Assembly: GCA_026954325.1 (NCBI GenBank)
Contig: JAIXKK010000153.1
Coordinates: forward strand, 1-64,000
Source: Bryobacterales bacterium
Lineage (GTDB): Bacteria; Acidobacteriota; Terriglobia; Bryobacterales; Bryobacteraceae
DNA length: 64,000 bases
Direction: 5' to 3'
The position numbers and the translations under genes were made by a program. Positions within the stretch are counted from its first letter, which is position 1; each line of letters opens with the position of its first letter. This document shows positions 28,565 to 58,415 of the stretch, in pieces. Under the pieces are notes generated by a model that ran no database searches, was not told the DNA's origin, and saw only the letters and a list, made by a program, of their open reading frames with translations.

Positions 28565-28566
28565 AC

Positions 28567-37333: not shown

Positions 37334-37490
37334 AGTCAGTCTCTCCTCAGCGGCCAGTCACTGGATTTCTGCCGACAGTGTATCACGCGCACCGCCTCAC
37401 CAACACTGGCCCGCCCGATCCGACATGGCCCGATCTGACGGCCCGATTTGATAACCTACTCCGGTATACCAAAGTTCAAAGGAGAACCCC

Positions 37491-38705: not shown

Positions 38706-38738
38706 TGTCTTCGCCAACCGCGCTCGTAGTGCAGTATC

Positions 38739-39548: not shown

Positions 39549-39550
39549 TC

Positions 39551-41149
39551 ATGCATCAGTGGACGGCCTACTTTCTCCTGCTCACCGCACCGGCAGCCGC
39601 CCAGGTCAGCTATCAGGACATCCAAAAAGGACCGGCCCAGGACTGGCTCACCTACGCCGGATCTTACGGCGCGTGGCGCTATAGTCCTCTCAAACAGATC
39701 ACCGTCAACAACGCCCGCAATCTTACGGCACAGTGGGTCTATCACGTCCCCAACGCCCGCGGATTGCGCGCCTCGCCCATCGTTTACAAGGGCGTGATGT
39801 ATGTCACCAACACCAACTCCATCTACGCCCTCGATGCCCGCACGGGCCGCCTCATCTGGCAATGGCTCGACACGCGCGCCAACAAACAAGGGGTCAATCG
39901 CGGCGCGGCCATCCTCGGTGATCGTGTCTTCTTCACCAGCACCGATAACTACCTCAACGCCCTCGACCGCCAGACCGGCGTTCTCCTCTTCAGCAGGAAA
40001 TTCGCCGATGCCGATTCCGGAATCACCTCCACCTCCGCGCCCCTCATCGCCGGCAACAAAGTAATCGTCGGCAGCGCCGGGGGCGATAGCGGCATGCGCG
40101 GTTTCCTCGCCGCCCTCTCCCCCGAAACCGGCGACGAAATCTGGCGTACCTACACCGTGCCCGCAAAGGGTGAGCCCGGCTCGGAAAGCTGGTCCGGACT
40201 CATCGAGTGGGGCGGCGGGGCCACCTGGCTTTCGGGCGCCTTCGACCCCTCCACCGACACCCTCTACTGGACCACCGGCAACCCATGGCCCGATTTCGCC
40301 GGCCAACCCCGCCAGGGCGATAATCTCTACACCTGCTCCCTGATTGCCGTCGATCTCGCCACGGGGAAAATGAAGTGGCACTTCCAGTTCACGCCGCATG
40401 ACACCCACGATTGGGACGCCCAAAGCTGGCCCGTCCTCATCGATACGGAATGGGAAGGCAAACCCCGCAAACTGGTCGTCCACGCTAACCGCAACGGCTT
40501 CTTCTACGTCCTCGACCGTGTCAGCGGCCAGTTCCTGCACGCCACCCAATTGATCGACAAGGTCACCTGGGCGAAAGGCATCGACGCCAACGGACGCCCC
40601 ATCGCCGTCCCCGGCCAGGACCCCACCCCGGAAGGCAACTGGGTCTGCCCCAGCGTCAAGGGAGCCACCAACTGGATGGGCCAAAGTTACAACCCCATCA
40701 CCGGCCTCCTCTACGTCCTCACCCTCGAACAGTGCGGCCTCTACACCAGTTCCTCAAAAACTCCCGAGCCCATGAAAAACTTCGCCGGCGGCGGAGCCAC
40801 TGAAGAGGGCGGCCAGGTCATCCTCCGCGCCATCGACCCCAAAACCGGAAAGCGCGCCTGGGAGTACCCCATGACCGGCCTCGGACGCATGTGGACCGGC
40901 ACGGTTTCCACCGCGGGCGGCGTCGTCTTCACCGGTGACGACGACGGGCACATGCTTGCCCTCAACGCCAAAACCGGAGCCCACCTCTGGCACTTCAACA
41001 TGGGCGAGTTGCTCACCGCCTCCCCCATCACCTACGAAGCCGGCGGAAAACAATACGTCGCCATCGCCTCCGCCTCCGCCATCTTTTCCTTCGGCCTCTT
41101 CGAACCGGCCGAACCCATGATCCCGCCGAAGGTGATCTTCACGAAATAA
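39551..41149 (+). CDS. Secreted PQQ-dependent dehydrogenase
   Basis: The 532-residue product has a signal peptide (WTAYFLLLTAPAAAQ) and an eight-bladed quinoprotein propeller with repeated tryptophan-docking motifs (YALDARTGRLIWQW, AALSPETGDEIWR, AVDLATGKMKWHF, RAIDPKTGKRAWEY, LALNAKTGAHLWHF). It resembles methanol/ethanol-type quinoprotein dehydrogenases and would oxidise an alcohol or sugar in the periplasm. No fused cytochrome is present; the cytochrome gene two bases upstream fills that role. Substrate is undetermined. No PQQ biosynthesis genes are in the window. Confidence 0.9.
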   Translation: MHQWTAYFLLLTAPAAAQVSYQDIQKGPAQDWLTYAGSYGAWRYSPLKQITVNNARNLTAQWVYHVPNARGLRASPIVYKGVMYVTNTNSIYALDARTGRLIWQWLDTRANKQGVNRGAAILGDRVFFTSTDNYLNALDRQTGVLLFSRKFADADSGITSTSAPLIAGNKVIVGSAGGDSGMRGFLAALSPETGDEIWRTYTVPAKGEPGSESWSGLIEWGGGATWLSGAFDPSTDTLYWTTGNPWPDFAGQPRQGDNLYTCSLIAVDLATGKMKWHFQFTPHDTHDWDAQSWPVLIDTEWEGKPRKLVVHANRNGFFYVLDRVSGQFLHATQLIDKVTWAKGIDANGRPIAVPGQDPTPEGNWVCPSVKGATNWMGQSYNPITGLLYVLTLEQCGLYTSSSKTPEPMKNFAGGGATEEGGQVILRAIDPKTGKRAWEYPMTGLGRMWTGTVSTAGGVVFTGDDDGHMLALNAKTGAHLWHFNMGELLTASPITYEAGGKQYVAIASASAIFSFGLFEPAEPMIPPKVIFTK

Positions 41150-41249
41150 CGCCGGGCCGGCCCCGCGCGGGTGATTCCGCCCTCTCTCGCTGGGCCGCCG
41201 GGCTTACAGACGCCTTCGACCCCTCCACCTCGCCAGGGACGCGCCAACA

Positions 41250-42134
41250 TCACCCTCGAATCTCGGCGAACGCGTCCGCGATCTCCCGCTTCGCCTCCGG
41301 CCCAACCACCGTCAGCGGCAGGCGCGGCGGGCCGCCATAGTACCCGTTCTGGTCCATCGCGTACTTCAACCCCGGCACCCCGTACTTCGCCGTCACCAGT
41401 CGCGCCGCCCGCGCAATGCGGTCCTGCCAGTCCCGCGCCGCTTCGTGCTCCCTCATCCGGTGCGCCTCCCAAATCGTGATGCAGGCGTACGGCGCCGCAT
41501 TGGCGAACGCCGGCACGGCCCCCACCGCCCCCACTTGAAACGACGGCCACAACGTCAGAGCCGATCCCACCAGCACCTGGAAACCCTTCTTCACCGTCCG
41601 GATCATCTCCATCACTTTCTCGATGTTCGCCGAGCTTTCCTTGATCGCGATGATGTTCGGATGCTCGCTCAGCAGCGCCACCGCCTCCGGTGAAATGTCC
41701 ACCCCGGTGGTCTGCGGCCAGTTGTAGATCATGATCGGGATCTTCGCCTGGTCCGCCACCGTGCGGAAGTACACCAATTGCGCCTCATCCCGGTTGAGCA
41801 GCGTTTTGTAGTAATGCGGCGTCCGCACCATCGCCGCCTTGTATCCCATCTCCGCGGCCCTGTTCGTCAGCCATACCGTCTCCCGCACGCTCTCCACACC
41901 GGTCCCCGCAATCAGCAGTTTCCCGGCGGCCGCCGCCTCGGCCGCCCACCCCCACACCTCGAACTTCTCCTCTGCCGTCAGCATCACGCTCTCCCCCGCC
42001 GAGCCGCACACCACATAGCCGGATAGCGCCGTCTTGTTCCACTTCTCCACGTTGTGAAATACCTTCGCCCGGTACAGCGAGCCGTCGTACTGGAAGGGAG
42101 TTGTAATCGGAGGAAAAATACCTTGAAGTTTCAT
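41250..42134 (-). CDS. Dihydrodipicolinate synthase (DapA/NAL) family protein
   Basis: The product is 294 residues from MKLQGIFPPITTPFQYDGSL. It has the family loop CGSAGESVMLTAEEK, tyrosine in MIYNWPQTTGVD and the Schiff-base lysine in IIAIKESSANIEK. It is closer to standard class I aldolases of this family than the other member at 25891. Without lysine-pathway neighbours it may act on other keto acids. An upstream TTG (42155) could extend it by seven codons. It is the next gene after the atp terminator on the same strand, so it needs its own promoter, and it is convergent with the PQQ dehydrogenase. Confidence 0.88.
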   Translation of the reverse strand: MKLQGIFPPITTPFQYDGSLYRAKVFHNVEKWNKTALSGYVVCGSAGESVMLTAEEKFEVWGWAAEAAAAGKLLIAGTGVESVRETVWLTNRAAEMGYKAAMVRTPHYYKTLLNRDEAQLVYFRTVADQAKIPIMIYNWPQTTGVDISPEAVALLSEHPNIIAIKESSANIEKVMEMIRTVKKGFQVLVGSALTLWPSFQVGAVGAVPAFANAAPYACITIWEAHRMREHEAARDWQDRIARAARLVTAKYGVPGLKYAMDQNGYYGGPPRLPLTVVGPEAKREIADAFAEIRG

Positions 42135-42152
42135 GACTCGTTCATCGTCCCG

Positions 42153-42191
42153 CAAAAATTAAGGGGGCCAAGCCCGTCAGGCCCGCCCCCT
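42153..42191 (-). terminator. Rho-independent terminator of the F0 operon
   Basis: Read on the minus strand, AGGGGGC pairs with GCCCCCT around a 16-base loop and is followed by TAATTTTT. It lies 25 bases past the atpE stop and separates the ATP synthase genes from the DapA-family gene. Confidence 0.8.
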
Positions 42192-42215
42192 CATGCTCTG
42201 AATATCGCGAAAAAC

Positions 42216-42503
42216 CTACACAACCTTGGCGAAGATGATAACCAGCACATAGAGCGCCAGCGACTCGATCAGCACCAGACCCAGAATCAGCGCGCCGCGA
42301 ATCGCGGCCGCTGCCGCCGGGTTGCGCGCCATGCCTTCGGCTGCGCCCGCCACGGCCTTACCCTGGCCCAGGGCGCACAAGCCCGAGGCGATCGCCATCG
42401 AGAAGCCAGACGTAATGGCCACCCAATTGGCGCCATCCGCGGCGTAAATCGGCGAGGCGATCAACAACAGCGCCAGCGCCAGAAACATCGTTTTCACACT
42501 CAT
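42216..42503 (-). CDS. atpE: ATP synthase F0 subunit c
   Basis: The 95-residue product begins with a cleavable-looking leader (MFLALALLLIASPIYAAD), then the two-helix hairpin of subunit c, with the polar loop GAAEGMARNP between helices and the ion-binding glutamate in GLVLIESLALY. The first helix ends in ALGQGKA. The Gln-Glu-Ser set is also found in Na+-binding rings, but the threonine after the serine is replaced by leucine, so ion choice cannot be called. The c-ring rotates with ion flow in the inner membrane. Confidence 0.95.
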   Translation of the reverse strand: MSVKTMFLALALLLIASPIYAADGANWVAITSGFSMAIASGLCALGQGKAVAGAAEGMARNPAAAAAIRGALILGLVLIESLALYVLVIIFAKVV

Positions 42504-42602
42504 TCGTTTCTCCTTGCTATGAATTGCCGCTCAGGAGGTGGTTCTATCCCTCGCCTGGGGGCGGGGTAGCTCACACTGGCGGCCATTATGCCCTACAAAA
42601 AA

Positions 42603-43340
42603 TCAATGCCCTTCGTGCGCCACCGCGCCGCCGACGTACAACATCGTCAGCAGCATGAAGACATACGCCTGAAGCAGCGCCACAAACACGTGCAGACCCA
42701 TGAACGCGACCGGCGCGATGAAATACGTCAGCGTCAGAAACAGCAGCGTCACCTGCTCGCCCGCGTACATGTTGGCGTAAAGACGAATGCTGAGCGACAG
42801 CGGCCGCGCCAGGTTCGAAATGATTTCGATGGGAAACATCAGGGGCGCCATCGCCGGAATCGGCCCCGCAAAATGCGCCAGATACCTGGCCCCGCCCTGC
42901 GCCTTGACGCCCATGATGTTGTAATACAGGAACGAGGCAAGCGCCAGTCCCACCGGCACGTAAGGAAACATCGTCGGCGACTCCAGGCCCGGAATGAGGC
43001 CGATCAGGTTCGAGACCAGCACAAAAATGAAAATCGCGCCGCAGAAGGGAATGTACTTGTCGCCATGGTGCGGGATATTCGTGTGCGCCTCGCCCCTCAC
43101 GAAATTGTAAATCGCCTCGAAAATATGCTGCGTCGCGCCCGGATTCTCCATCGACAGCCGGGGCTTCAGCATCGCAAACATAACAACAATGATTGCCGCT
43201 ACCACGATCTGCATCGTGATCCAGTTGGTCCATGGACGCGCCGCGTTTTCCGCGTGCTGGCCCACGGCATTCAAAATCGCCGTCCCCACGCCGCCAAGGT
43301 AATCGTTGAACAGTCGGGTAATTAAGATCTCATGTTCCAT
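42603..43340 (-). CDS. atpB: ATP synthase F0 subunit a
   Basis: The 245-residue membrane protein has the subunit a signatures: NLIGLIPGLESPT, the essential arginine in PLSLSIRLYANMYAGEQV, and a C-terminal helix VALLQAYVFMLLTMLYVGGAV. It forms the ion half-channels next to the c-ring. It overlaps atpI by 11 bases and precedes atpE. No subunit b gene follows; the operon ends after atpE. Confidence 0.96.
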   Translation of the reverse strand: MEHEILITRLFNDYLGGVGTAILNAVGQHAENAARPWTNWITMQIVVAAIIVVMFAMLKPRLSMENPGATQHIFEAIYNFVRGEAHTNIPHHGDKYIPFCGAIFIFVLVSNLIGLIPGLESPTMFPYVPVGLALASFLYYNIMGVKAQGGARYLAHFAGPIPAMAPLMFPIEIISNLARPLSLSIRLYANMYAGEQVTLLFLTLTYFIAPVAFMGLHVFVALLQAYVFMLLTMLYVGGAVAHEGH

Positions 43341-43716
43341 GAATGAACTCGTAGAGGATTTCGAGCAAGGCTGCGGCGGCTGCGATCATCAGACCGCACA
43401 GCGCCGCCGTCAGGTGTAACCCGAATATACGCATCATAGCATAAACAAAGGCGAAAATGAGCAGATACCGCGCCCCCAGCAGAATGCTCCGGAACGCCCC
43501 CGGTTTGCTCTTCCCCCCTGGCCCGATCGCCATCACGAAGCGGTGGGTATAGTGAAAACTCACCAGCGAAATCAACGCCCCTGCCCCGAACCCGATCCCC
43601 CACGGCGGTCCCTTCCCCACGAAAAACACCACCGTCCCCAGCACCGCCAGCCACAGCATGATCCGCCGCATGCGCTCCACCGCCGCGTCCAGGTTGAACT
43701 CAGGATTTCCCGCCAC
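43330..43716 (-). CDS. atpI: ATP synthase subunit I-like assembly protein
   Basis: The 128-residue product has four hydrophobic segments (LWLAVLGTVVFFVG, GIGFGAGALISLVSFHY, ILLGARYLLIFAFVYAMM, ALCGLMIAAAAALLEILYEF) as in AtpI, which helps assemble the c-ring. It sits between the AtpZ-like gene and atpB and overlaps both, indicating coupled translation. Confidence 0.8.
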   Translation of the reverse strand: MAGNPEFNLDAAVERMRRIMLWLAVLGTVVFFVGKGPPWGIGFGAGALISLVSFHYTHRFVMAIGPGGKSKPGAFRSILLGARYLLIFAFVYAMMRIFGLHLTAALCGLMIAAAAALLEILYEFIHGT

Positions 43717-43930
43717 TGTCTTCCCGGTTCAATTCCACAATCAGATTGGCCACCCCCGCCCCGATCCCCAGGAGCAGAAAAATCAAGTACAACACATGCG
43801 TCCCCAGCCACTTGTCGAGATAGTACCCCAGGACGTAACCTACTACCGTCGCCGCGGGTAATTGAAGCGCCAGCGTCATATAGCGGCCATATTGCTGCAT
43901 CAGGCTCCTGTCCTGCCGCCCGCTCTTCAT
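43700..43930 (-). CDS. atpZ: AtpZ/AtpQ-like F0F1-associated membrane protein
   Basis: The 76-residue product (MKSGRQDRSLMQQYGRYM) has two hydrophobic helices (LALQLPAATVVGYVLGYYLD and LYLIFLLLGIGAGVANLIVE), matching the small proteins encoded ahead of atpI in many bacteria and linked to ATP synthase assembly or Mg2+/Ca2+ transport. AGGAAGG precedes the start. It overlaps hemD by four bases (ATGA) and atpI by 17. Confidence 0.82.
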   Translation of the reverse strand: MKSGRQDRSLMQQYGRYMTLALQLPAATVVGYVLGYYLDKWLGTHVLYLIFLLLGIGAGVANLIVELNREDSGGKS

Positions 43931-44757
43931 GTCCTTCCTCGCTTTCTTTCCATCAGCGCCCGCGCCCGTTCCGCGGTTTCCCCCACAAGGATCCCCATCT
44001 TCGGATGACTCGGAGCGAAATCCGTCCCAATCCCGCACTCCTCCAACACATCGCTGCACGACGGCCCGATGGACGCCACCACCACTCTTCGCCGCAGTTC
44101 GTCCGCCACCTCCGCCCCCACCCCTTCCTCGCCCGCAATTTGGAGCAGGTGAGGAGCCTGCATGGCCGTCGTGAACATCGCCACGTCAAACTCGCCCGCC
44201 GCCAAACCGCGCGCCGCCCGCCGCAAAGGCCCGGTATCTTCCGGCAGCCTGTATTGATACACACGCACCGGCGTCACCTCCGCCCCGCGCGCCTCCAACC
44301 CCGCCACCAGTTCCGGACAAGGCCGCCCGTACTCCTGCACCGCTACGCGCCTCCCCGTGCGCCCCTCCGTCGCCGCCAGCAATTCGCGCCACGTGTTCGG
44401 CTCCGGAGCCATTATGTCCGCCGTCAACCCCATCTCCCGCAGCGCCCCCGACGGCTTCGGCCCCCTCGCCACCACCGTCACCCGCCGCAGCGCCGCCGCA
44501 AACTCCCCTTCCGGATACCTTGTCGCGATCAACTTCGCCAGCGCCCGCGTCCCCACCCCCGTCAGCAGCACCACCATGTCGAACTCACCGGCGAACAACC
44601 GCTTTGCGAATCCGAACGCCGCCTCGTTCTCCTCCACCGGAGCCTCGCGCAACGACGGAGCCACGAACGGCACACCCCCCTGGTTGCGGATCAACGTCGC
44701 CATCTCCGCCCCGCGCCGCGTCTCCAGCGCCAACACGCGCAGTCCGTCGAATCCCAT
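43927..44757 (-). CDS. hemD: Uroporphyrinogen-III synthase-like protein
   Basis: The 276-residue protein has the two-lobed HemD layout: VLALETRRGAEMATLI at the start, DMVVLLTGVGTRAL in the first lobe, and DVAMFTTAMQAPHLL plus VVVASIGPSCSDVLEECG in the second. It would cyclise hydroxymethylbilane to uroporphyrinogen III. Sequence conservation in this family is low, so the call rests on fold-level motifs. It is the first gene of the minus-strand operon and overlaps atpZ by four bases. Confidence 0.8.
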   Translation of the reverse strand: MGFDGLRVLALETRRGAEMATLIRNQGGVPFVAPSLREAPVEENEAAFGFAKRLFAGEFDMVVLLTGVGTRALAKLIATRYPEGEFAAALRRVTVVARGPKPSGALREMGLTADIMAPEPNTWRELLAATEGRTGRRVAVQEYGRPCPELVAGLEARGAEVTPVRVYQYRLPEDTGPLRRAARGLAAGEFDVAMFTTAMQAPHLLQIAGEEGVGAEVADELRRRVVVASIGPSCSDVLEECGIGTDFAPSHPKMGILVGETAERARALMERKRGRT

Positions 44758-44804
44758 ACCTCTAGCCTACCGTGCACCGTACCACCCGGCGCGGCGGAAG
44801 ATCA

Positions 44805-45167
44805 TTACTGCCGTTCCCAACTCCCCGGCAACCCCGGTATGTAATACCACTGCGTGTGCCTGCTCGAATCCTCGGCGATCACCGTCAAACTCGCCCACGC
44901 CCCCGATATCTTATTCACCGTCGCCACCCAGGTGAACGCGTTGGGCGTCGTCCAGGTCGTGAATCTCCACTTCGAGCCCGGCACAAAACCGTCAGGAAGC
45001 ACCGTGGCTTCGCTCGGATTCGTCACAAAAACAGGCAGCGGAGAACTCGCTCCGATTTGCGCCGGGGCCTGCGCTTCAACGTGTTGCACCCACGCCGTCA
45101 CGGAACACGCGGCCATGACCAGCGCCATCGTCACACCAATACGGATAGAAGTAGAGGAAAGTCGCAT
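44805..45167 (-). CDS. Small secreted hypothetical protein
   Basis: The product is 120 residues from MRLSSTSIRIGVTMALVMAACS, a signal peptide (possibly a lipoprotein signal because of the cysteine). The mature part is beta-rich and tryptophan-rich (KWRFTTWTTPNAFTWVATVN, SRHTQWYYIPGLPGSW). No family is recognised. An upstream start at 45263 would place the signal internally and is less likely. It lies 47 bases upstream of hemD on the same strand. Confidence 0.55.
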   Translation of the reverse strand: MRLSSTSIRIGVTMALVMAACSVTAWVQHVEAQAPAQIGASSPLPVFVTNPSEATVLPDGFVPGSKWRFTTWTTPNAFTWVATVNKISGAWASLTVIAEDSSRHTQWYYIPGLPGSWERQ

Positions 45168-45263
45168 ACAGACCATTGACGCGCACTCCGGGAAAATGTG
45201 CAAAACTCCGTTCCTTTCCCCGGCGGCCGTCCGGTTGCAGTAAACTTCCCTACAGGAGACCAC

Positions 45264-46348
45264 ATGATCTATTCCCGACGCGAAGTGATGTCCACCTTAC
45301 TGGCCACGGCGGCCGCCCATGCCGCCGCATCGGATTCAAAACTGGGAATCCCCGGCCCCTTCCCCGGACGCGTAGTGGCCGTCAATAGCGAGAACTCGAT
45401 CGTCTCGGGCCAGTACCAGCCGGAAATCATCCGGAACATGATGCACAAAGGCATGCTCTCCCTCACCGGAGCCCCCGCCTGGCCCGATGCCTGGCGCATG
45501 TTCGTCCAGAAAGGCGATGTGGTCGCCATCAAGGTTTGCCCGTCGGCGGCGCCAAGCTTTCCTCCGACCCCTCCGTTTTGCATACCATCATCGACGGCAT
45601 CAAGCAGGCCGGCGTCCCCGATCGCGACATTGTCGTCTTCAACCGCTACCGCCAGGAAACCTTCGCCGCCGGCATCAATAAGTGGGTGCCCGAAGGCGTC
45701 CGCCTGGCCTGGGCCGCCGAAAGGTACGAGGAATCCCAACTCGGCATGGATGGCTATGACCCCGGCGTTTACATGGAAATGGCCCTGGTCAAGCCGGGCG
45801 ACAATCCCAATGACGTCCACTCGCGCCGCTCCTACGTCGCTCAGGTCATCTCCAAACAGGTGAACAAGGTCATCAATCTCCCCGTCGTCAAATCCCACCA
45901 GTCGGCCGGCGTCACTCTCTGCCTCAAGAACATGTCCCACGGCATGGTGAATAATGTCAATCGCAGCCACATCAACCGCGAACTGAACGCCTGCAATCTG
46001 TTCATCCCCGCCGTCGTCGACCTGCCCGTCATTCGCCAGAAGGTGGTTCTCCACGTCCTCGACGGCGTCAAAGCCGGTTACAACGGCGGGCCGGGAACCC
46101 CTCCCCAGTTCCGCTGGGAGCACAAGACCATGTACTTCGGCACGGACCCCGTGGCCCTCGACAAAATCGGCTGGCAGGTCGTCGACGCAAAGCGCAAGCA
46201 GGAGGGCCTCCCCCCCGTCGCCGAAACCGGCCCGGACGACCGCTTCAACCACTATTGGGGCCAACCCCAACACATCGAACTCGCCTCCAAACTCGGTCTC
46301 GGCGTTTTCGACGACGCCAAACTCGACGTTAAACGCCTCTCCGTCTAG
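45264..46348 (+). pseudogene. Frameshifted DUF362 protein
   Basis: The gene starts at 45264 (AGGAG site upstream) with a Tat-like signal (YSRREVMSTLLATAAAH). After GDVVAIKVCP near 45541 one G appears to be missing, and the sequence resumes in the next frame as VGGAKLSSDPSVLHTIIDGI. It continues with NKVINLPVVKSHQSAGVTLCLKN and FGTDPVALDKIGWQVVDAKR, diagnostic of DUF362 (PF04015), a family often linked to Fe-S proteins. The four-cysteine cluster found in some members is absent. Restoring one base gives a single frame of about 361 codons, so decay is recent or this is a sequence error. Confidence 0.88.
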
Positions 46349-46523
46349 GCGCGGCAACAAGCCCGTCAGATTTCTTCCCTCTGCGTCCTCGGCGGCTCTA
46401 CCGAGAAATACAGCTCCCGCTACCAGCAGCACCGCTCCGCACAGGCCACCCTACACGCTCGCCAGCCACAATGCTCGCTAAGGGTCAAAGCTCCGCGAGA
46501 ACGAACATGCGAAACTTGATCTG

Positions 46524-48770
46524 ATGAGTTCTATCGCCCTTTCATCCGACGTTCTCTTACATATCTCGAAGCTGATCAACGTTCCCCTCAGAGGCCTCGT
46601 GGCCACCATCGAACTGCTTGACGAAGGCGGCACCGTCCCCTTCATCGCCCGCTACCGCAAAGAGGCCACCGGCAACCTCGACGAAGTCCAGATCCGCGAG
46701 ACCCAGGAAAAACTCGAATACTTCCGCGAACTCGAAGACCGCCGCTCCACCATCCTCCAGTCCATCCAGGAACAAGGCAAGCTCGCCGCCGACCTCAAGA
46801 ACAAAATCGCGGCGGCCATGGAGAAAACCGAACTCGAGGATCTCTACCTCCCCTACAAGCCCAAGCGCCGCACCAAAGCCTCCATCGCCCGCGACCGCGG
46901 CCTCGAACCCCTCGCCGCCTTCCTTTGGGAGCAATCCGCCGCCGCGCCGCTCGCCGAATTCGCCGCCGCTTTCGTCAACCCCGAAAAGGAAGTCCCCTCC
47001 GTCGAAGAGGCCCTCGAAGGAGCCTGCCACATCATCGCCGAAATGGTCAGCGAGGACGCCGACTTCCGTAAAAAAGTCCGCTCCATGATGTCCGGACAGG
47101 GTGTCGTCTCCAGCCGCCGCATCGAAGGCGTGGAAGACCCCGAATCCAAGTTCGCGCAATACTACGAATTCCGCGAGCCCGCCTCCAAAATCCCCTCCCA
47201 CCGCATGCTCGCCATCCGCCGCGGAGCGAAAGAAGGCATCCTCCACTTCGAAATCGAGATCGAGCCCCAAGGCCCCCTCGCCTGGCTCCAATCCCAGGTC
47301 ATCAAAGGCCCCTCGGACTGCGCCCCCTACCTCGAATCCGCCGTCGCCGATTCCTATGACCGCCTTCTTAATCCCTCCATCCAGACCGAAGTCCGCCTCG
47401 AACTGAAAGACCGCTCCGACGAAGAGGCCATCAAGGTCTTCCGCGAGAACCTCGAAAACGTCCTCCTCTCTCCGCCCGCCGGCATGCTCTCCGTCATCGG
47501 CATCGACCCTGGCATCCGCACCGGCTGCAAACTCGCCGTCGTCGATTCCACCGGCAAGTTCCTCGAGCACTCCGTCATCTATCCCCATGAGCCCAAGAAC
47601 GACCTCGCCGGCGCCGTCCGCACCCTTGCCTCGATGATCGCCAGGCACAACGTCCAGGCCATCGCCATCGGCAACGGTACCGCCTCCCGTGAAACCTCCG
47701 CCTTCGTGCAGGACTTCCTCCGCCAGGCCGGCCTCGCTAAAATCTTCAGCGTCGTCGTCAGCGAATCCGGAGCCAGCGTCTACTCCGCCTCCGACGTCGC
47801 CCGCCAGGAGTTCCCTGATCTCGACCTCACCGTCCGCGGGGCCATCTCCATCGCCCGCCGCCTTCAGGACCCACTCGCCGAACTGGTCAAGGTCGATCCC
47901 AAGTCCATCGGCGTCGGCCAATACCAGCACGACGTCGATCAGCGCCGCCTCAAGCAAAGCCTCGAGGCCACCGTCGAAAGCTGCGTCAATCGGGTCGGCG
48001 TCGATCTCAACACCGCCTCCGTCCCCCTGCTCCGCCACGTCTCCGGGCTCACCGAGCGGACTGCCCAGCACATCGTCGAATTCCGCAACCAGAACGGCCG
48101 CTTCCTCAACCGCCGGCAATTGATGGCCGTCCAGGGGCTCGGACCCAAGACCTTCCAACTCGCCGCCGGATTCCTGCGCATCCGCGGTGGCGACAACCCG
48201 CTCGACATCACCGCCGTCCACCCCGAATCTTACCCCATCGTCGAGCGCATCGCCGAATCGCTCAAGGTCTCCCTCCACGACCTCATCGCCAAGCCCTCCC
48301 TTATCGAAAACGTCGATATCCAGGCCTTCCGCACCGAGGAAGCAGGCAGCTACACTCTCTCCGACATCAAAGAGGAACTCCGCAAACCCGGCCGCGACCC
48401 GCGCGATACCTTCATCCGCCCCGCCTGGCGGGACGACGTCAAGGAGATCGGCGACCTCAAACCCGGCATGCAACTCGAGGGCGTCGTCACCAACGTCACC
48501 CGCTTCGGCGCCTTCGTCGATGTCGGCGTCCATCAGGACGGCCTCGTGCACGTCAGCGAGATGAGCCACCGCTTCATAAAGGACCCTTCCGAAGCCGTCA
48601 AGGCCGGGCAGATCGTCAAGGTTCAGGTGATCTCCGCGGATCCCAAGGCCAAGCGCATCGCCCTCTCGATGAAGGCCTGCGAACCGCGGCCGAAGCAGCA
48701 GCCGCCCAAGCCGGCCTCGACGCTCGAAGACAAACTGGCCGCGCTCAACGCCAAATTCCGCGTCCGTTGA
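46524..48770 (+). CDS. tex: Tex family transcription accessory / RNA-binding protein
   Basis: The 748-residue protein matches Tex over its whole length: N-terminal helical domain with GTVPFIARYRKEATGNLDE, the YqgF-like RNase H fold (VIGIDPGIRTGCKLAVVD, VSESGASVYSASDVARQEFPD), tandem helix-hairpin-helix (GVDLNTASVPLLRHVSGL, RRQLMAVQGLGPKTFQLAAGFLRIRGG) and a C-terminal S1 domain (LEGVVTNVTRFGAFVDVGVHQDGLVH). Tex binds nucleic acid and RNA polymerase. It is monocistronic; codons are strongly C-ending. Confidence 0.96.
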   Translation: MSSIALSSDVLLHISKLINVPLRGLVATIELLDEGGTVPFIARYRKEATGNLDEVQIRETQEKLEYFRELEDRRSTILQSIQEQGKLAADLKNKIAAAMEKTELEDLYLPYKPKRRTKASIARDRGLEPLAAFLWEQSAAAPLAEFAAAFVNPEKEVPSVEEALEGACHIIAEMVSEDADFRKKVRSMMSGQGVVSSRRIEGVEDPESKFAQYYEFREPASKIPSHRMLAIRRGAKEGILHFEIEIEPQGPLAWLQSQVIKGPSDCAPYLESAVADSYDRLLNPSIQTEVRLELKDRSDEEAIKVFRENLENVLLSPPAGMLSVIGIDPGIRTGCKLAVVDSTGKFLEHSVIYPHEPKNDLAGAVRTLASMIARHNVQAIAIGNGTASRETSAFVQDFLRQAGLAKIFSVVVSESGASVYSASDVARQEFPDLDLTVRGAISIARRLQDPLAELVKVDPKSIGVGQYQHDVDQRRLKQSLEATVESCVNRVGVDLNTASVPLLRHVSGLTERTAQHIVEFRNQNGRFLNRRQLMAVQGLGPKTFQLAAGFLRIRGGDNPLDITAVHPESYPIVERIAESLKVSLHDLIAKPSLIENVDIQAFRTEEAGSYTLSDIKEELRKPGRDPRDTFIRPAWRDDVKEIGDLKPGMQLEGVVTNVTRFGAFVDVGVHQDGLVHVSEMSHRFIKDPSEAVKAGQIVKVQVISADPKAKRIALSMKACEPRPKQQPPKPASTLEDKLAALNAKFRVR

Positions 48771-48772
48771 TG

Positions 48773-49271
48773 TGGCGGCCTGCAAGGGAAATGGACTTGC
48801 GGAGTTTTTCTCTGGAAGGCATGAGGTCAACAGGATCGAGAGAGGACGCTCGGGAGAAGGCGATGCCGGGACGGCTGGGAGATGGTCTGCCGGGTTCCTT
48901 TCACCAGCCGGGATCATCCGCGGAAGGACTCCGCCAAACGGTGACCTGGCGATCCCTGTTTGGCGGCAAGCGCAAAATCCTGCTCGCAGTCGCCGGATAC
49001 TTTCACCGCAACCGGGACCGCTTGCACTATGACGAATATCTGGCCCAGGGGTTGCCGATCGCCAGTGGCCCGGTCGAAGGCGCTTGCAGGAACCTGATTA
49101 AGTTAAGGATCACATGGAGAGGTCAGGCATGCGTTGGGCACTCATGGCCGAAGCCTCAAGCTCGGCGCGCTGTACCTCAGTGAGGACTTTGATTCCTACT
49201 GGGATTTTTACATCAGCCAGGACCGGCAGCGGCCTTCCCCCGCCGGTCATTGGAGCGTCGCCGCAAAGTAG
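48773..49271 (+). pseudogene. ISKra4-type transposase C-terminal remnant
   Basis: In one frame the text reads AGYFHRNRDRLHYDEYLAQG and LPIASGPVEGACRNLIK, the conserved C-terminal catalytic region of ISKra4-family transposases. It then shifts frame to read MRWALMAEA, and again for LYLSEDFDSYWDFYISQDRQ up to a TAG at 49269-49271. The N-terminal half of the transposase is absent and no terminal inverted repeats were seen. It begins immediately after the tex stop codon and coincides with the GC-skew switch. Confidence 0.85.
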
Positions 49272-49529
49272 GCCGCCCGAATGAATTGAGAAATGCGTGA
49301 AAGTCAACAGAGGAAAGAGGGGCTTTGTATCTTGCTGCCCCTTCGATGAATTCAGCCTAATTCCCGGCGTCATGGCGGCGGCCATTATGGTCAAACCTTT
49401 ATGATGGCGGGGCGCCCTCGACACTGTGCAGCGAGCGCGCGGAACAGGGCGGTTCAGTAAGGAGGAAACCCGCGCGGGGAAACAGGCGTCTGAATCCAGT
49501 AGATCGCACGGTAAAATGAAAGCGTCCTG

Positions 49530-50300
49530 ATGTCTCGTTTCTGGTTCGTTTTTCTCTTCTCAATCGCGTATGCTTTCGCCCAGGACCCGGGCCGGCCGGC
49601 GGAAACCGCGCAAGGCGGGAACCCCGCCGCCCGAGCGGAAAGCGCGGATACCGCCGATCCGCCTCCGGACGGCGACGTGGCCTCAATCCGTCCGGCAACA
49701 CCGGCTTCCAAGGCGCAGCCCAAGCGTATCCTCGGCCTCATGCCCAATTACAGGGCGGTGAGCGCGGGAACCATTCCGCCGCCGCCCACTCCAAAGCAGG
49801 CCTTCAGGATCGCCACCCAGAACAGCTTCGATTACTCGTCGTTCGTTTTCGTGGGCATCACTTCGGCAATGTCGTTCGGCACTGGCGGACATCCGCAACT
49901 GGGCGTAGGCATGAAAGGATACGGCCGGTATTACTGGCGAGGCTTCGCCGACAAGACGAATGGGAACTATCTTGTGATTTTCGCGCTGCCGACCATATTC
50001 CATCAGGATGAACGCTACTACGCCATGGGCGAGGGTTCGTTCTGGAAGCGAGCCGCGTACGCGGCGTCACGAATCCTGATCACGCCGAACTACCAGGGCC
50101 ACAACAGCTTCAATGCCTCCGAGATATTGGGACGGGGGATTGCGCAGGGCATCTCGATGTCCTACTATCCGAGCAACAGCCGGACGTTGGGCGCTATCGG
50201 CGTGAAATTCGGATACGCGCTGGGCCGCGATGCGCTCACCAATGTGTTTCGCGAGTTCTGGCCGGATATCGCGACACACGTTCTACACCGCCATCCCTGA
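49530..50300 (+). CDS. Secreted hypothetical protein
   Basis: The 256-residue product has a signal peptide (MSRFWFVFLFSIAYAFAQ), a low-complexity linker rich in Pro/Ala (to about residue 60) and a conserved-looking domain with HQDERYYAMGEGSFWKRAAYAASRI, NSFNASEILGRGIAQGISMSYYPSNSR and GRDALTNVFREFWPDI. A similar architecture is common among uncharacterised Acidobacteria proteins. The glycine/aromatic pattern suggests membrane or envelope association. It is the first intact gene after the skew switch. Confidence 0.7.
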   Translation: MSRFWFVFLFSIAYAFAQDPGRPAETAQGGNPAARAESADTADPPPDGDVASIRPATPASKAQPKRILGLMPNYRAVSAGTIPPPPTPKQAFRIATQNSFDYSSFVFVGITSAMSFGTGGHPQLGVGMKGYGRYYWRGFADKTNGNYLVIFALPTIFHQDERYYAMGEGSFWKRAAYAASRILITPNYQGHNSFNASEILGRGIAQGISMSYYPSNSRTLGAIGVKFGYALGRDALTNVFREFWPDIATHVLHRHP

Positions 50301-50356
50301 CCGGGAGACCAGCCGAGGTCCCGTTCTCCTTTCCGCCTATCCGCCGTGATCGCCTG

Positions 50357-51277
50357 TCACAAACCGGCGAAGCGCACTCCCATCGGGAGGTGGATCTCCA
50401 GGCGCTGTGATGGAGGAACATTCCCGGGCGGCGGCGGCGCCGGACCGGAGGGCGGCTCGAACGAGGCGGCCAGCGCTCCGCACTCCGACCACGCGTCGAT
50501 CAGAGACCGTGAAAGGCCGATGTCCGCGTGGAGGGCGTGACGGAGTTGTTCGGGCGTCAGGTCTCGGGTGAAGACGCCGGCGCGCGTTCTCTCATAGCGC
50601 GTATTTCCGCGAAGAAGGATCATCCGGCCGGGAAGGCCGCGAAGCGCGTACAGGCGCTGATTAAAGGGGCTCTGGCGGCGGGAGTTCTCGTAGTTGGCGA
50701 GGGCCGCCTCAGGGGAAATGGACTCGGGGAAGATGCGGCACGGAAGGAAAGTGGACTGATGAGGGCCGCGCGTCCAGACAACGTGGCTTGCGGAATCGGG
50801 TTCGACTTCGACGGCGGTGACGCCGTCGGCGTAGGTGTAGAGGCTGTCGGCTAACGGGACCGGCTCACAGGTCAGGAATGAGGAGTCGGCCAGGAATTCC
50901 GCCGAGTCCAGCGTGACGATGACGGTTCCGTGGTTTCGAACCCCCATGTCGTGCATGGATCCGGTAGCGAGGCGGGCGCGAAAGCCGAGCGCGCAAAGAA
51001 GTTCATAGAGCGCATTGGACCCGGGCCAGCAGGTTCCGCCCGCGCCGGTTTCGAGCCAGGCTCCGAAGAAATCGGTGGCATCGCGGCCGGGAAGAGGCGA
51101 ACCGGTACGCAGGGCGAGCAACTTGCGCACGTTGTCGAACGGGACGCGCCGGCTCCAGGCGTTGTAGACAAGGCGAAGTCCCTCGGAGGTTGTGGGCGGC
51201 GTGTTGTTGAGGCCCAGGCGCCGCAGAATGCGGTCGCGGAGTCCGGCGGGGATTCCAGACGAAACAATCTCTGTCAT
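50357..51277 (-). CDS. Arylamine N-acetyltransferase-like protein
   Basis: The 306-residue protein has the NAT catalytic triad: Cys83 in GAGGTCWPGSNALYELL, His116 in VRNHGTVIV and Asp131 in LADSSF. The N-terminus (LRLVYNAWSRRVPFDNVRKLL) also matches the family. It would transfer acetyl from acetyl-CoA to an arylamine, or catalyse a related acyl transfer. The last 40 residues are proline-rich. AAAGGAGC lies upstream of the start. It stands alone. Confidence 0.85.
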   Translation of the reverse strand: MTEIVSSGIPAGLRDRILRRLGLNNTPPTTSEGLRLVYNAWSRRVPFDNVRKLLALRTGSPLPGRDATDFFGAWLETGAGGTCWPGSNALYELLCALGFRARLATGSMHDMGVRNHGTVIVTLDSAEFLADSSFLTCEPVPLADSLYTYADGVTAVEVEPDSASHVVWTRGPHQSTFLPCRIFPESISPEAALANYENSRRQSPFNQRLYALRGLPGRMILLRGNTRYERTRAGVFTRDLTPEQLRHALHADIGLSRSLIDAWSECGALAASFEPPSGPAPPPPGNVPPSQRLEIHLPMGVRFAGL

Positions 51278-51323
51278 ACAAGCTCCTTTGCCGGCAGTCT
51301 ATGACTCTCGAAGAACAAAAGGC

Positions 51324-51548
51324 TCAGCCGGTGACGGGAATCCGCGCCACGCCGCGGCTGCTCAGTTCCGCGTGAACCCGCGGACCGAGGCGCGCGATGA
51401 GTTGCGGCATCGCCTCGATGTCCGCGGTGGAAGTCCGGAAGTTGACGATGCAGAAACGCAGCGCGAACCTGCCGTTGATGACGGCATTCGATACGAACGC
51501 TTCACCGCTTTCCTCAATGGCCGCCATCAGGCGCCGGTTCAACTGATT
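51324..51548 (-). pseudogene. C-terminal stub of a PLP-dependent decarboxylase
   Basis: The frame encodes NQLNRRLMAAIEESGEAFVS and RFALRFCIVNFRTSTADIEA, the C-terminal signature of group II aromatic-L-amino-acid / tyrosine decarboxylases. The remaining 400 or so residues, including the PLP lysine, are absent; the sequence joins directly onto the truncated PIG-L gene. Seventy-odd codons remain. Confidence 0.85.
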
Positions 51549-52009
51549 GAGATAAAGTCCATGCGGTAGGAGGCGTCAGCGGCGCACAATGCGGCGGCGG
51601 TAGTGAATTGAGAGATGGCGATGTGGTCCGGGTGGCCGTAGGCTCCCTCCGGGCCGAAAGTCACCACTACGTCGGGCCGGATGCGCCGGATGTGGCGGAG
51701 AATATCTGGGATGGCCGTCCTCGAATCGACCTGGTCCACGCCTCCATCCGGGTATCCGAGTACGGAGACTTCCCTGATGCCGAGCACCGCCGCGGCGGCT
51801 CGCAGTTCCATTTCCCGAACACGGCCGACTTCCTCGATATTGGCGGATTTCCCGGCGGCGCCGAAGCGGCCACGCTCTCCGCGCGTCGCCGTGACGAGGT
51901 AGGTTTCGATGTTCTCGGCGGCGTATTTCGCCAGGGTGCCGCCGAATCCCAGCGACTCGTCGTCCGGATGGGCCAGGACGGCGAGAAGTTTGAACGTGTG
52001 ACTCCTCAT
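51539..52009 (-). CDS. PIG-L family deacetylase, truncated
   Basis: The frame encodes 156 residues with the zinc-binding AHPDDE (13-18), the family segment GGTLAKYAAENIETYLVTATRGERGRFG, and the distal histidine motif YGHPDHIAIS. Full-length N-acetylglucosaminyl-type LmbE/PIG-L deacetylases are usually 220-270 residues; this one ends six or seven residues after YRMD, where decarboxylase sequence begins. All zinc ligands are present, but the C-terminal part of the fold is missing, so stability is doubtful. Confidence 0.8.
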   Translation of the reverse strand: MRSHTFKLLAVLAHPDDESLGFGGTLAKYAAENIETYLVTATRGERGRFGAAGKSANIEEVGRVREMELRAAAAVLGIREVSVLGYPDGGVDQVDSRTAIPDILRHIRRIRPDVVVTFGPEGAYGHPDHIAISQFTTAAALCAADASYRMDFISIS

Positions 52010-52117
52010 AACTCTATTGGCGAGAAACGAGGCTCCAACAGATCAAGGCCTGTATTCTATTTCACGCTTGAATGATGGACGCTTCATGCGCCGCGGGAAG
52101 ATGATCGAGGACCTGAA

Positions 52118-53800
52118 CTACCGGTGATGTCCACCGCCGCCGCGTCCGAAGGAACCACCGCCCCCGTGTCCGCCGGAAAAGCCGCGGCCGCCGGAGAAAC
52201 CTCCGCCACCCGGCATGCGAGGAGAAGAAAACGATCGCGGCGCGGAGAAACCGCGGCTCGGCGCCTGGAATCCGCCACCGCCAAAACTACGCGGAGAGGA
52301 GAATGATCGCGGGGCGGAATAGCTTCGCGGAGGGGCGGAGTAACTCCGGCTGGGGGCAGTGTTGGATCTTGGTGAGAAGGATCCGCTATTGCCCGGCGCC
52401 GCGTATCCGCGCGAGAACGACCGGCCGGTGGATGGTTCATTTCCGGAGTTCCGTGTCGAGCCGTAACCGCGGGAGCGCTGCGATGGGGAGGCGTAGTTGC
52501 GCCACCCGTTGGCGGAGGGGGCGTTGGGTGTTGTCTGCTGAAGGGAACCCGCGCCGCCACGGCTGCCCGGCCGGATTCCAGAGTTTTCGGACGGGGCAAA
52601 GCCACGCGAATACGATTGCCCGTTAGGCGCACGGTTACCGCCGAAACTGCGCCATTGGCCGGCGCCGGCGGACCGGTCTCCCGCGACGCCTCCGCGCGAG
52701 CCACCCCTGTTAGAAAATGAGCCGGAGTTGGGCGAAAATCGCTGGCCACCGGCGTAAGTACGGCCGCCGCCGGCGTGTCCGCGATCCATGCCACCAGCAC
52801 CAAAACGGCTGCCTCCAAACCGGCCCGCCACGGCCCGGTTAGGGTAGGGAACCCCCATACGGTGGCCGGGATCATGCATCCACCCCACCCGTCCGCCAAT
52901 CCGTCCGCCGCCGGCATAGCCTCCGTAATATCCGCCAGGGCCATAATAGCCGCCATGACCGCCAAAATAGCCGCCACGGAACCCGTAGCGGTTAAAGAAG
53001 CCGACGTTGACATAGAGGCTTTGGCCGAACCATCCGCAACCCCATCCCCATCCGCCCCAGCCTCCCCAACCCGGGAAGTAGGCGCTCATATAGTACGCGG
53101 GGCCGAAGCCGAAACCGAAGCCGAAGCCGGGCGGATACCACAGGTCTGGGTAATACCCCCAGACAGGCGGCCCCCAGACATAGGCGGGGCTGTAAATGGG
53201 AACATAAATCACTTGCGGATTGGCGGGCTGGATTTCAATGGCATCCTGGCCATCCTGGGTGGCCGTGGTCACAACCTGCTGCGAAGTGGTAGCCAGCCTG
53301 CCGTTGGCCCGGGCGCGTGCGCGCATTCGCTGGATCGCGCTCATCACATCGGCCTGCTGAGCAAGGAAGGCGTTCCCGAGATCCGTGGTCCATCGAATGT
53401 CGTTGGCCAGCAGCGCCAGGGCATCGGGAAACGCCACCAGCGCCTGGACGCTGGGATCCCAATTCTGCTGCCGTGCCGCCGCCATGAGTTGCGACCCCTT
53501 GAGATTGCCGTTCTGCCTGAGCCACTGCTGCGCCTCGACCACTTCAAGCGGGTAAGTGCTGGCGGAGAGGACTTGGCTGAGCAGCGGATCCGGATAGAGG
53601 GCGACAGGCGCCACCAGGTTATCCAACTGGTTGGCGGACAGGAGTGGAGCGGCCTGCCGCGTGTCCGCGGGCCGGACGGGCGGGGCCTGGGCGCCCGGAT
53701 CGGAGCCATCCTGGGCAAAGCCCGGGACGGGGACAATAAGGAAGACTGCAATGGCTGCAACTCCCCAGAACACCGAATTCCCACTCGATAGCCGAGGCAT
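52118..53800 (-). CDS. DUF3300 domain-containing secreted protein
   Basis: The 560-residue protein has a signal peptide (VAAIAVFLIVPVPGFAQ), a DUF3300 domain (about 50-250: LDNLVAPVALYPDPLLSQVLSASTYPLEVVEAQQWL, IQPANPQVIYVPIYSPAYVWG) and a long Gly/Tyr/Ser/Arg-rich tail (about 240-560) with repeated units such as RSYSAPPRSYSAPRSFSSPRS and GGGGFSGGRGFSGGHGGGG. It ends in GGGGHHR. The tail is probably disordered and surface-exposed. The function of DUF3300 is unknown. Confidence 0.9.
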   Translation of the reverse strand: MPRLSSGNSVFWGVAAIAVFLIVPVPGFAQDGSDPGAQAPPVRPADTRQAAPLLSANQLDNLVAPVALYPDPLLSQVLSASTYPLEVVEAQQWLRQNGNLKGSQLMAAARQQNWDPSVQALVAFPDALALLANDIRWTTDLGNAFLAQQADVMSAIQRMRARARANGRLATTSQQVVTTATQDGQDAIEIQPANPQVIYVPIYSPAYVWGPPVWGYYPDLWYPPGFGFGFGFGPAYYMSAYFPGWGGWGGWGWGCGWFGQSLYVNVGFFNRYGFRGGYFGGHGGYYGPGGYYGGYAGGGRIGGRVGWMHDPGHRMGVPYPNRAVAGRFGGSRFGAGGMDRGHAGGGRTYAGGQRFSPNSGSFSNRGGSRGGVAGDRSAGAGQWRSFGGNRAPNGQSYSRGFAPSENSGIRPGSRGGAGSLQQTTPNAPSANGWRNYASPSQRSRGYGSTRNSGNEPSTGRSFSRGYAAPGNSGSFSPRSNTAPSRSYSAPPRSYSAPRSFSSPRSFGGGGFQAPSRGFSAPRSFSSPRMPGGGGFSGGRGFSGGHGGGGSFGRGGGGHHR

Positions 53801-53981
53801 CGTTCACCGCCTTCCACCACGCATTTCCGAACCATTTTTATTTGAGCACGTCAGTGACCAAACGTAACTCATTCCAAGGCATGGCGCTTGAGTGGTTGGT
53901 GCAAGGAAAAAGATGGCCGAGAACCACCACGCCGGTGGAAATGAACCACCGATGGCGGACTGAAAGCTGAATTGGCGGCAA

Positions 53982-54746
53982 CTACACCATGTACATGCCG
54001 CCGTTGATCTCGATGGTCTGTCCGTGGATGTATCGGGCGGCATCGGAGCAGAGGAAAACGACGGCATCCGCGACCTCCTCATCGGTTCCGAGCCTTCCGG
54101 CGGGCGTGGCCTTGATCACACTATCGAGGACATCGCGAGTGCTGAAGACCTGGTGGAAGTGGTTGTCCACGGTGCCTGGGCTGACGGCATTGACGCGGAT
54201 CCCTTTGGGGGCAAGTTCCTTTGCCATTCCTTTCGTAATGCAGGATACGGCGGCCTTGGCTGCCGCGTAGATGGCGGCTCCGGGTCCGCCTCCGTTGCGG
54301 GCGGCGATGGAACTGACGTTGACGATGACGCCCCGGCCTTTGGAGATCATGGAGGGGGCGGCTTCCTGGGAGAGGAACCAGGAGGCGCGAAAATTGAGAT
54401 CCATCACTTCATCGAAGAGTTCATCGGAGAACTCGAGCAGGGAGGCGCGCTTGACGAGGGAGCCGGCGTTGTTGACGAGGATGTCGATTTCCGGCGCCTC
54501 ATCGTGCAGTTTCTCGCGAAAGGCGCGGATGCCTTCCGCCGAACTGAAGCTGCCGTAAAGGGCGGCGGTTTCGACACCGGCGCCGCGGATGGCAGCCATT
54601 ACCTTTTCGGCGCCTTCCTGGTTGGACTGGTAGTGAACGAGTACGCGGGAGCAGCCGCTTTTGGCGAGGGCGATGGCGGTGGCGGCTCCGATGCCGCGGG
54701 AGGCGCCGGTGACGAGGGCGGTCTTGCCGTTCAATTCAGGTAGCAC
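53982..54746 (-). CDS. SDR family oxidoreductase
   Basis: The 254-residue protein is a classical short-chain dehydrogenase: TGASRGIGAATAIALAKSG (NAD(P)-binding), NNAG, and catalytic Ser-Tyr-Lys in NVSSIAARNGGGPGAAIYAAAKAA. FabG-like length and order. It starts at GTG (54746) with AGGAGA five bases upstream, 33 bases after the cyclase gene, and is the last gene of the Hsp70 operon. Substrate unknown. Confidence 0.92.
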   Translation of the reverse strand: MLPELNGKTALVTGASRGIGAATAIALAKSGCSRVLVHYQSNQEGAEKVMAAIRGAGVETAALYGSFSSAEGIRAFREKLHDEAPEIDILVNNAGSLVKRASLLEFSDELFDEVMDLNFRASWFLSQEAAPSMISKGRGVIVNVSSIAARNGGGPGAAIYAAAKAAVSCITKGMAKELAPKGIRVNAVSPGTVDNHFHQVFSTRDVLDSVIKATPAGRLGTDEEVADAVVFLCSDAARYIHGQTIEINGGMYMV

Positions 54747-54779
54747 GGGAATCTCCTGGTAGTTGTCTGGGTACCGAGC

Positions 54780-55589
54780 CTAAGATACCAGGGCGAGAGG
54801 GCGAATGGGAGAGCCGGTTCCTCCGGTCAGCTTGAGAGGCGCGGCGAGGAAGAGAAACTCGAAAACCTTTTCGGCGGCGAGTTGTTCGAGGTTGAGGGCC
54901 TCGATGATATAAATGCCGCGTTCCACCAGGAGGTGGAGATGGACTGGCATGTTCGGATTGGGTACGCGTTCGAAGGCGACAGTGTCTGAACCGGCGGCAA
55001 TCACGCCGCGGGAACTGAGCCAGCGCGCCGCGGGTTCCTCGGGACCGGGGCCGCGCACCTCATGGATATAGCGCGCGGCGTCGGACCAATAGCGCGCCCA
55101 GCCGGTGCGGATGAGCACGATGTCGCCGGGCTGTACGGTGACTTGCTGGAGCCGGCAGGCGGCGTCGAGGTGTTCGGGAGTAACGGTGAAGTCAGGGGGA
55201 AGGATCTCTTCGCCGGCGAGGGGCGGGATGTCGAGGAGGATGCCGCGGCCGATGAGCGGGGGCATGGTATCGACGGAAAGACGCTCGAGGCCTTTGGCGT
55301 AGGACTGGACATCGGCGGCAGAGGCGCCGTCGTGGAGTTTCCCGTCCCTCGAGAAGTGGCAGAGGGCGTCGACGTGGGTGCCGACATGGCCGCCGAGGGC
55401 GATGGCTTCGCTAGCGGAACTGCCGCGGACGGGGGAGACGAAATCGCCGTGTTTTTTGACGAGGCTGAAGAGATAGGGTGGATGGGAAGGATGGTGGGGC
55501 ATTCCGACGAAGTAAGGTTGCGCCAGGTCATACACCTTGGCGGATCTGAGAAGCGCCGCCAGTTCGGCGGTTTTCGATGTGGTAATCAA
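54780..55589 (-). CDS. Cyclase family protein (kynurenine formamidase-like)
   Basis: The 269-residue product starts at a TTG (55589) overlapping the exchanger stop. It carries the cyclase-family signatures: VYDLAQPYFVGMPHHPSHP, the metal-binding GGHVGTHVDALCHF, and GDIVLIRTGWARYW. Members hydrolyse formylkynurenine or cyclise polyketides. Here the genomic company (Ca2+ exchanger, Hsp70) gives no substrate. The overlap implies translational coupling to the exchanger. Confidence 0.85.
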   Translation of the reverse strand: MITTSKTAELAALLRSAKVYDLAQPYFVGMPHHPSHPPYLFSLVKKHGDFVSPVRGSSASEAIALGGHVGTHVDALCHFSRDGKLHDGASAADVQSYAKGLERLSVDTMPPLIGRGILLDIPPLAGEEILPPDFTVTPEHLDAACRLQQVTVQPGDIVLIRTGWARYWSDAARYIHEVRGPGPEEPAARWLSSRGVIAAGSDTVAFERVPNPNMPVHLHLLVERGIYIIEALNLEQLAAEKVFEFLFLAAPLKLTGGTGSPIRPLALVS

Positions 55590-56646
55590 TGGCTCACCCC
55601 TTCCGGCAGGAAATAGAACACGATTCCCAGGATGATGTACACAGCGAGCAATTGTACTCCTTCGAGCCAATGGGATTCCCCATCGCCGGAGATTTGCGCG
55701 GTGATGGCCACGGCGAGGACAACGGCGACCACTTCGGCGGGTGTGAAGACCAGATCCATGGGATGGGGGCCGATGAGGTAGCTGGCAAGGACAAGAATGG
55801 GGGCGACAAAGAGGGCGATCTGAACGCTGCTGCCCATGGCAATGCCGAGGCTCAGGTCCATGCGGTTTTTGATGGCCATGAGGATGGCGGTGGAATGCTC
55901 GGCCGCATTGCCGACGATGGCGACGACGATGATGCCTACAAAGACACTGGTCATGCCGAGGGAGTGGGCGGCATGTTCGACGGAGCCGACTAGGATTTCG
56001 CTCATCCAGGCGATGAAGGCAGTGGAGACAAACAGGATGGAGAGAGACTTGGCGAGGCTCCAGGCTTTCCTGTTGTTTCCTTCCTCGCCGAGACTCTCGA
56101 ACAGTTGGCGGTGAGTGTGGAGGGAGAAGAGGAGGCTGGCGAAGTAAGTGGCAATGAGAACGACGGCGATTTCGAGGCTGAGGCCGGCCTCTTTGCCCGG
56201 CGCGGCGGCGCCGCCGAGGTAGTGGAATGCGGCGGGCATGATGAGGGCGATGGCGGCGAGGGTCATCATGCTGGCCTGGGAGCGGGCTCCGGTGGCGTTG
56301 AAGCGGAGGATCTTGTGTTTGTATCCTCCGGCAAAGCAGGCGGCTCCGAGAACAAGGAGGACGTTGCCGATGATGGAGCCGGTGAGGGAAGCCTTGACGA
56401 CACCGTGAAGGCCCTTGTGCAAGGCGACGAGGGCGATGATGAGTTCGGCGGCATTTCCGAAGGTGGCGTTGAGAAGGCCGCCGATGGCTTCGCTGGTACG
56501 GGAAGCAAGGTGTTCGGTGGCGCGCCCGAGCCAGCCGGCGAGCGGGATGATGGCCAGGCAGGCGCAGAGGAAGATGGCGATGTGCCAATCGGGGTGCGCG
56601 AATTCGAGCCACACGCAGACGGGGACGAACAGGAGAAGAAAGTTCA

Positions 56647-56647
<1 letters not shown>
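55586..56647 (-). CDS. cax: Calcium/proton exchanger
   Basis: The 353-residue membrane protein has the two alpha-repeats of the CaCA superfamily: NATFGNAAELIIALVALHKG and GNAAEHSTAILMAIKNRMDL, with the acidic residues that bind Ca2+, and about eleven hydrophobic segments. It exports Ca2+ in exchange for H+. Its ATG overlaps the Hsp70 stop (ATGA), and its stop overlaps the cyclase start, so all three are coupled. Confidence 0.93.
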
Positions 56648-58209
<1,562 letters not shown>

Positions 58210-58415
58210 CTTTAAACTGTAGCGCAGGGGGTCGGCGAGGCTGTAGTTTTGCGGGACCACTTCGGCCATGCGGCGTGACTGGCGAGGAACGGAAAGGATA
58301 CATTCCGGTTCCGGGCAAAAGACGATATCGAGAGGTTGGATTCCGGGGAATTTCCGCGGGTGTTGGGGAAGGCGCGGGGACCGTAGTATGTCCCGGCGGG
58401 ATGTGGCGTTCCGGG

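Follow-up and report, generated by a model that had tools for sequence, protein, structure and literature searches.

Does an abrupt reversal of strand composition within a draft contig mark a replication origin, a fault of the assembly, or the scar of a rearrangement? The question is raised here by the end of tex, a gene lying on contig C165 (68,273 bases) of a Bryobacterales draft assembly of 228 contigs and 6.97 Mb. The window that we analysed comprises bases 1-64,000 of this contig, and the genome-wide skew figures given below come from about 0.92 Mb of sampled contigs. An Rfam search of the window gave no match.

Position and form of the skew switch

The switch is real. The cumulative GC skew of the whole contig reaches its minimum at 48,765, at the stop of tex and inside its last codons (ORF end 48,770). 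The best change point is found at the same place (support interval 48,667-48,792); it raises the log-likelihood by 390, whereas over 1000 shuffles of 500-bp blocks the gain never rose above 110.

A sequence-only reading of this DNA had described the bias as indifferent to gene direction, and the GC skew at fourfold-degenerate sites, read on the + strand, bears this out. From 18.9 to 48.8 kb the annotated genes of both directions have fourfold skews of -0.43 to -0.77: on this C-rich side the values for + genes (tex -0.77, DUF362 -0.74, enolase -0.75) stand beside those for minus genes (hemD -0.77, SMC -0.57, Ku -0.45). On the G-rich side we found +0.77 for Hsp70 and +0.65 for the sigma54 activator, both on the minus strand, and +0.19 for GWxTD on the + strand. 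An ORF without family, at 16.8-18.1 kb, has a fourfold skew of -0.19.

The extent that had been proposed for each domain stands only in part. The strand was taken as C-rich from about 8.4 kb; it is strongly so from 17.2 kb onward (raw GC skew -0.23) and weakly over 2.3-17.2 kb (-0.07). It was taken as G-rich from about 49.5 kb, which holds only weakly: the rise occurs in two steps, at 48.77 kb then at about 54 kb. Between them, at 49.5-53.9 kb, G-richness is weak to moderate at fourfold sites (+0.06 to +0.32) and the raw skew is nearly neutral (+0.035 for 49,444-53,966). The strongly G-rich part begins near 54 kb (53.8-54.8 kb by its support interval) with a raw skew of +0.23 and fourfold skews of +0.64 to +0.77 up to 60 kb; it is weaker beyond. 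As for the turn itself, said to fall within about 750 bases holding a transposase fragment, it does adjoin this fragment, but at the left edge of the interval, i.e. the tex stop, and not at 49.5 kb. The GC content is about equal across the blocks (0.626, 0.634 and 0.631).

Table 1. Features around the switch, in positions of the window
Feature	Position	Strand	Basis
C-rich skew domain, mean GC skew -0.226, genes in both directions, ends at tex	17180..48765	.	segmentation and per-gene fourfold skew
Synteny block common with contig C225 of relative G003: DHDPS, atpB, hemD, DUF362, tex; 91-92% identical	41254..48766	.	blastn
tex (Tex RNA-binding protein with S1 domain); the C-rich domain ends with this gene	46524..48770	+	Pfam Tex_N, Tex_YqgF, S1
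Seam, 0.7 kb; left-block homology stops and right-block homology starts at its edges	48771..49443	.	
Dispersed-repeat fragment, multi-copy in G003, 75-80% identical	48819..48913	.	
Decayed C-terminal ISKra4-family transposase, two frame changes	48911..49272	+	NCBIfam NF033572
Middle synteny block: 49530 gene, NAT-like acetyltransferase, PIG-L, DUF3300	49444..53966	.	synteny and fourfold skew
G-rich domain: SDR, cyclase-like, Na/Ca exchanger, Hsp70, sigma54 activator	53967..60275	.	fourfold skew and synteny

The seam that follows tex was searched against the whole genome and is single copy in the assembly; no contig end overlaps it. The transposase fragment that it holds had been correctly assigned to the ISKra4 type: it matches positions 343-421 of the 422 of profile NF033572 (E 3e-26), with a score of 92 bits against a cut-off of 205, as a fragment would, and its DNA is about 87% identical to an intact copy, encoding a 506-aa transposase, in relative G003, against which the frame changes are seen. 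An intact ISKra4 transposase is absent from the seam, which has only the C-terminal remnant, and we found no inverted repeats framing this remnant.

Gene order in relatives and the displaced neighbours

Homology to the tex side ends at 48,766 in relatives G003 and G009 and at 48,770 in G011; that of the right block starts at 49,444. In G003 and G009, tex is followed by a rhodanese gene, then by a Gfo/Idh gene (a segment 93% identical between the two), and in the other relatives examined it has different neighbours. On the other side of the joint, a segment with a ychF-type GTPase precedes the 49530 gene, i.e. the 49.5-kb block, in G003, G009 and G011. Conserved synteny of tex with the genes at 49.5-54 kb, proposed beforehand as the observation that would speak against a rearrangement, was looked for, and the adjacency of tex to the 49.5-kb block was absent from every relative examined.

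Both lost neighbours are present elsewhere in the same genome. The rhodanese segment lies on contig C161, from 57,753, where it adjoins a copied FUSC-gene tail, with a hydrolase-like gene and transposases of the IS4 and IS630 types nearby. The ychF segment lies on contig C104 (C104:324), its homology being lost at base 277-324 toward the left end, so that ychF leads there into a part of tRNA-Glu. The contig starts with 55 bases (L217, 1-55) of the 3' part of this tRNA gene, identical to the intact gene on contig C222; this may represent the site at which an integrated element is attached, or else a branch point of the assembly.

At locus L220, which represents C161, the short copy of the FUSC 3' end occupies 17,690-17,751, just before the rhodanese gene; the FUSC gene ends at 12,018, and two transposase elements and the large hydrolase-like gene separate gene and copy. 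A stretch of 38 bp at C161:57,715, aligned by blastn to the tail of tex, was considered as a retained end of tex but reads as the copy of the FUSC 3' end.

The tex tree groups the source genome with G009, then with G003, then with G011 (support 82/80, 87/89 and 100/100 respectively, moderate at the inner forks). Given this branching order, the tex-rhodanese and ychF-49.5-kb adjacencies, both broken in the source genome, are most simply taken as ancestral, and the joint of tex with the 49.5-kb block as derived. The situation differs at the edge near 53.97 kb: this is a synteny break with respect to G003 and G009 and not to G011, which keeps the order of 49.5-58 kb and of 61-68 kb, without the SDR and cyclase-like genes. 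As the order of G011 is continuous across it, this edge looks older than the tex joint.

Inheritance of skew with DNA blocks

The blocks on each side of the joint keep their skew in close relatives, whatever their position there. The fourfold skew of tex is -0.80 in G003, -0.84 in G009 and -0.53 in G011, and in the first two the C-richness extends from tex into the rhodanese gene. The Na/Ca exchanger and Hsp70 range from +0.64 to +0.80 in close relatives, the strong skew of this block being kept in G003, G011 and G004, and the middle block lies between -0.20 and +0.33. For orthologues of at least 90% amino-acid identity, the coding-strand skews are correlated at r = 0.96 (n = 42 pairs, which share ancestry and are not independent) and the sign is kept in all 37 of the 37 strongly skewed genes; in the lower identity bins r is 0.19 (80-90%), 0.36 (65-80%) and 0.06 (50-65%). 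Within this Bryobacterales genus, skew is passed on with the blocks over roughly 10% nucleotide divergence, and is changed in more distant congeners. Besides, with respect to the C-rich strand, the operon at 62-67 kb of C161 lies inverted in the distant congener G001, where its coding-strand skew is opposite; a bias set by the chromosomal strand would produce this.

Since skew travels with blocks, joining unlike blocks yields a switch, and this explains the one at tex without an origin. We give a probability of roughly 0.86 to the reading of the switch as the joint of a rearrangement, in a chromosome whose strong mutation bias is strand-asymmetric and independent of gene direction. A joint of this kind had already been suggested from the sequence; it is now supported by the gene order of relatives and by the finding of both lost neighbours on other contigs. 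Each stretch of DNA would carry the imbalance of G versus C that it gained at an earlier position and orientation. In the source lineage the DNA downstream of tex would have been exchanged, the C-rich tex block becoming linked, at the tex stop, with a block formerly beside ychF, and debris of mobile elements—the ISKra4 remnant and the second repeat—would have been left in the seam. The step would then reflect the unlike inherited skews of the joined blocks, still unrelaxed.

Since the seam is filled with transposon debris, the ISKra4 element may plausibly have mediated the joint. The event may have been driven by a transposon, or by ectopic recombination at mobile elements, and might have been an inversion, a translocation or a succession of several steps. 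A single two-break inversion was rejected: it predicts a reciprocal joint, ychF next to rhodanese, which we sought on C104 and C161 and did not find, so that a simple inversion does not fit. Further points count against the reading as a joint. It is known from one draft assembly only, and skew varies largely in magnitude (0, 0.3, 0.7) and not in sign alone, so that a plain inversion model is insufficient without relaxation over time. The bias itself would stem from replication; against such a basis counts the near absence of skew in G019, a genome from another genus of the family.

The genomic mosaic and the other readings of the switch

Among the sampled contigs, 23% of the genes have an absolute fourfold skew above 0.5, and neighbouring genes agree in + strand skew whether they lie on the same strand (r = 0.79) or on opposite strands (r = 0.74). 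These contigs contain 13 boundaries of at least 0.5, the turn being C-to-G in seven cases and G-to-C in six, that is about a dozen such seams per megabase in the sampled genome; the tex switch is the largest step. Transposase or integrase genes occur at four of the 12 other boundaries (C45:145 kb, C46:3 kb, C39:3 kb and C161:55 kb), a link that is anecdotal. In G019 (a single contig of 6.69 Mb), 22 sampled sites gave as largest absolute 20-kb value 0.12; as this genome is almost free of skew, it yielded no replichore map and the strong strand bias is not family-wide. The unusual feature is the strength of the strand-skew mosaic.

Two further observations were made on the sampled contigs. The fourfold AT skew rises with the GC skew (r = 0.44), the G-rich strand being also A-rich. 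Two skew boundaries, on C39 and C46, share a 1.7-kb element, nearly identical between them, that carries an rve-domain integrase (L066, 1,425-3,142, and L233, 2,843-4,561).

That local changes of skew sign record inversions is established (PMC6220195). The tex switch is of the same nature as a local sign change, independent of gene direction and tied to rearranged DNA; unlike those cases, its amplitude is extreme (fourfold skew to about 0.77 in the window) and the mosaic has no visible replichore background. Skew anomalies have also been used to spot misassemblies (PMC7111523), and here likewise an inflection within a contig can point to a false join or to some major rearrangement; unlike there, the gene order of relatives and the displaced neighbours favour a real event, and flanking inverted exact repeats are lacking. 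Mobile elements are established as main drivers of rearrangement (PMC12863080). Like IS-rich genomes in which gene order is shuffled and global skew lost, namely Wolbachia (PMC4703054) and Candidatus Solibacter usitatus Ellin6076, reported to be without strand bias (PMC3174227), the present genome has mobile elements, frequent rearrangement and no simple global skew; unlike in both, its local skew is strong, blocky and not erased. Taken alone, the locus is an ordinary rearrangement scar. However ordinary, since skew is inherited with blocks, skew steps in draft genomes can flag rearrangements and perhaps date them; they should not be read as origins, nor automatically as misassemblies.

A genus-wide mutation process, exceptionally strong and strand-asymmetric, might imprint domains of a few to tens of kb, beyond what one origin and one terminus would give, for example through many firing sites or a domain-specific fork direction. 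We regard this as unlikely; if true, the tex joint would be one edge among those of a map of domains, and such a map could serve as a rearrangement clock.

It is improbable that the joint is an assembly chimera, i.e. two unrelated contigs of the genome falsely joined via mobile-element sequence. The fragmentation of the draft into 228 contigs, the repeat-derived seam and the multi-copy state of related elements in G003 would all make such an error easier, but the seam is single copy and overlapped by no contig end, and its IS copy is decayed, hence offers no exact repeat. Repeat-mediated misassembly was set aside, no second copy of the seam having been found in the whole genome. A chimera would also leave unexplained the altered contexts of both former neighbours, rhodanese inside C161 and ychF running into the tRNA copy on C104.

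That the switch is a chromosomal replication origin, with forks leaving both ways, is very improbable, even if the C-rich to G-rich polarity, the size of the step and a like C-to-G turn beside tex in two Acidobacteriaceae genomes agree with it. The sequence-only reading had remarked that no dnaA was near, and rightly: dnaA is on a separate contig, C2. DnaA boxes are at chance level, two matches in 64 kb against 1.4 expected, without cluster. The two flanks are separated in close relatives, and there both tex and the gene next to it are C-rich; the second half of the step, at a distance of 5 kb, coincides with a block edge that was inherited; the sampled contigs contain seven C-to-G boundaries; and the Acidobacteriaceae turn is on the opposite side of tex. 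The C-to-G skew minimum at 48,765 was confirmed at the scale of contig C165.

Horizontal transfer of the blocks, from donors with different skew, would fit their unlike skew magnitudes and the mobile-element debris of the seam but is hardly credible, both sides having orthologues in congeners at similar identity, a near-equal GC content and, within the strong domain, housekeeping genes (enolase, smc, atpB and tex).

In the two Acidobacteriaceae genomes, the sharp C-to-G turn lies between polA and tex, at 9,666 of L099 (Edaphobacter) and 9,744 of L102 (Granulicella), the fourfold skew passing from about -0.6 to +0.8/+0.9. The queA-polA-tex order is conserved at these loci, and dnaA is present in both genomes.
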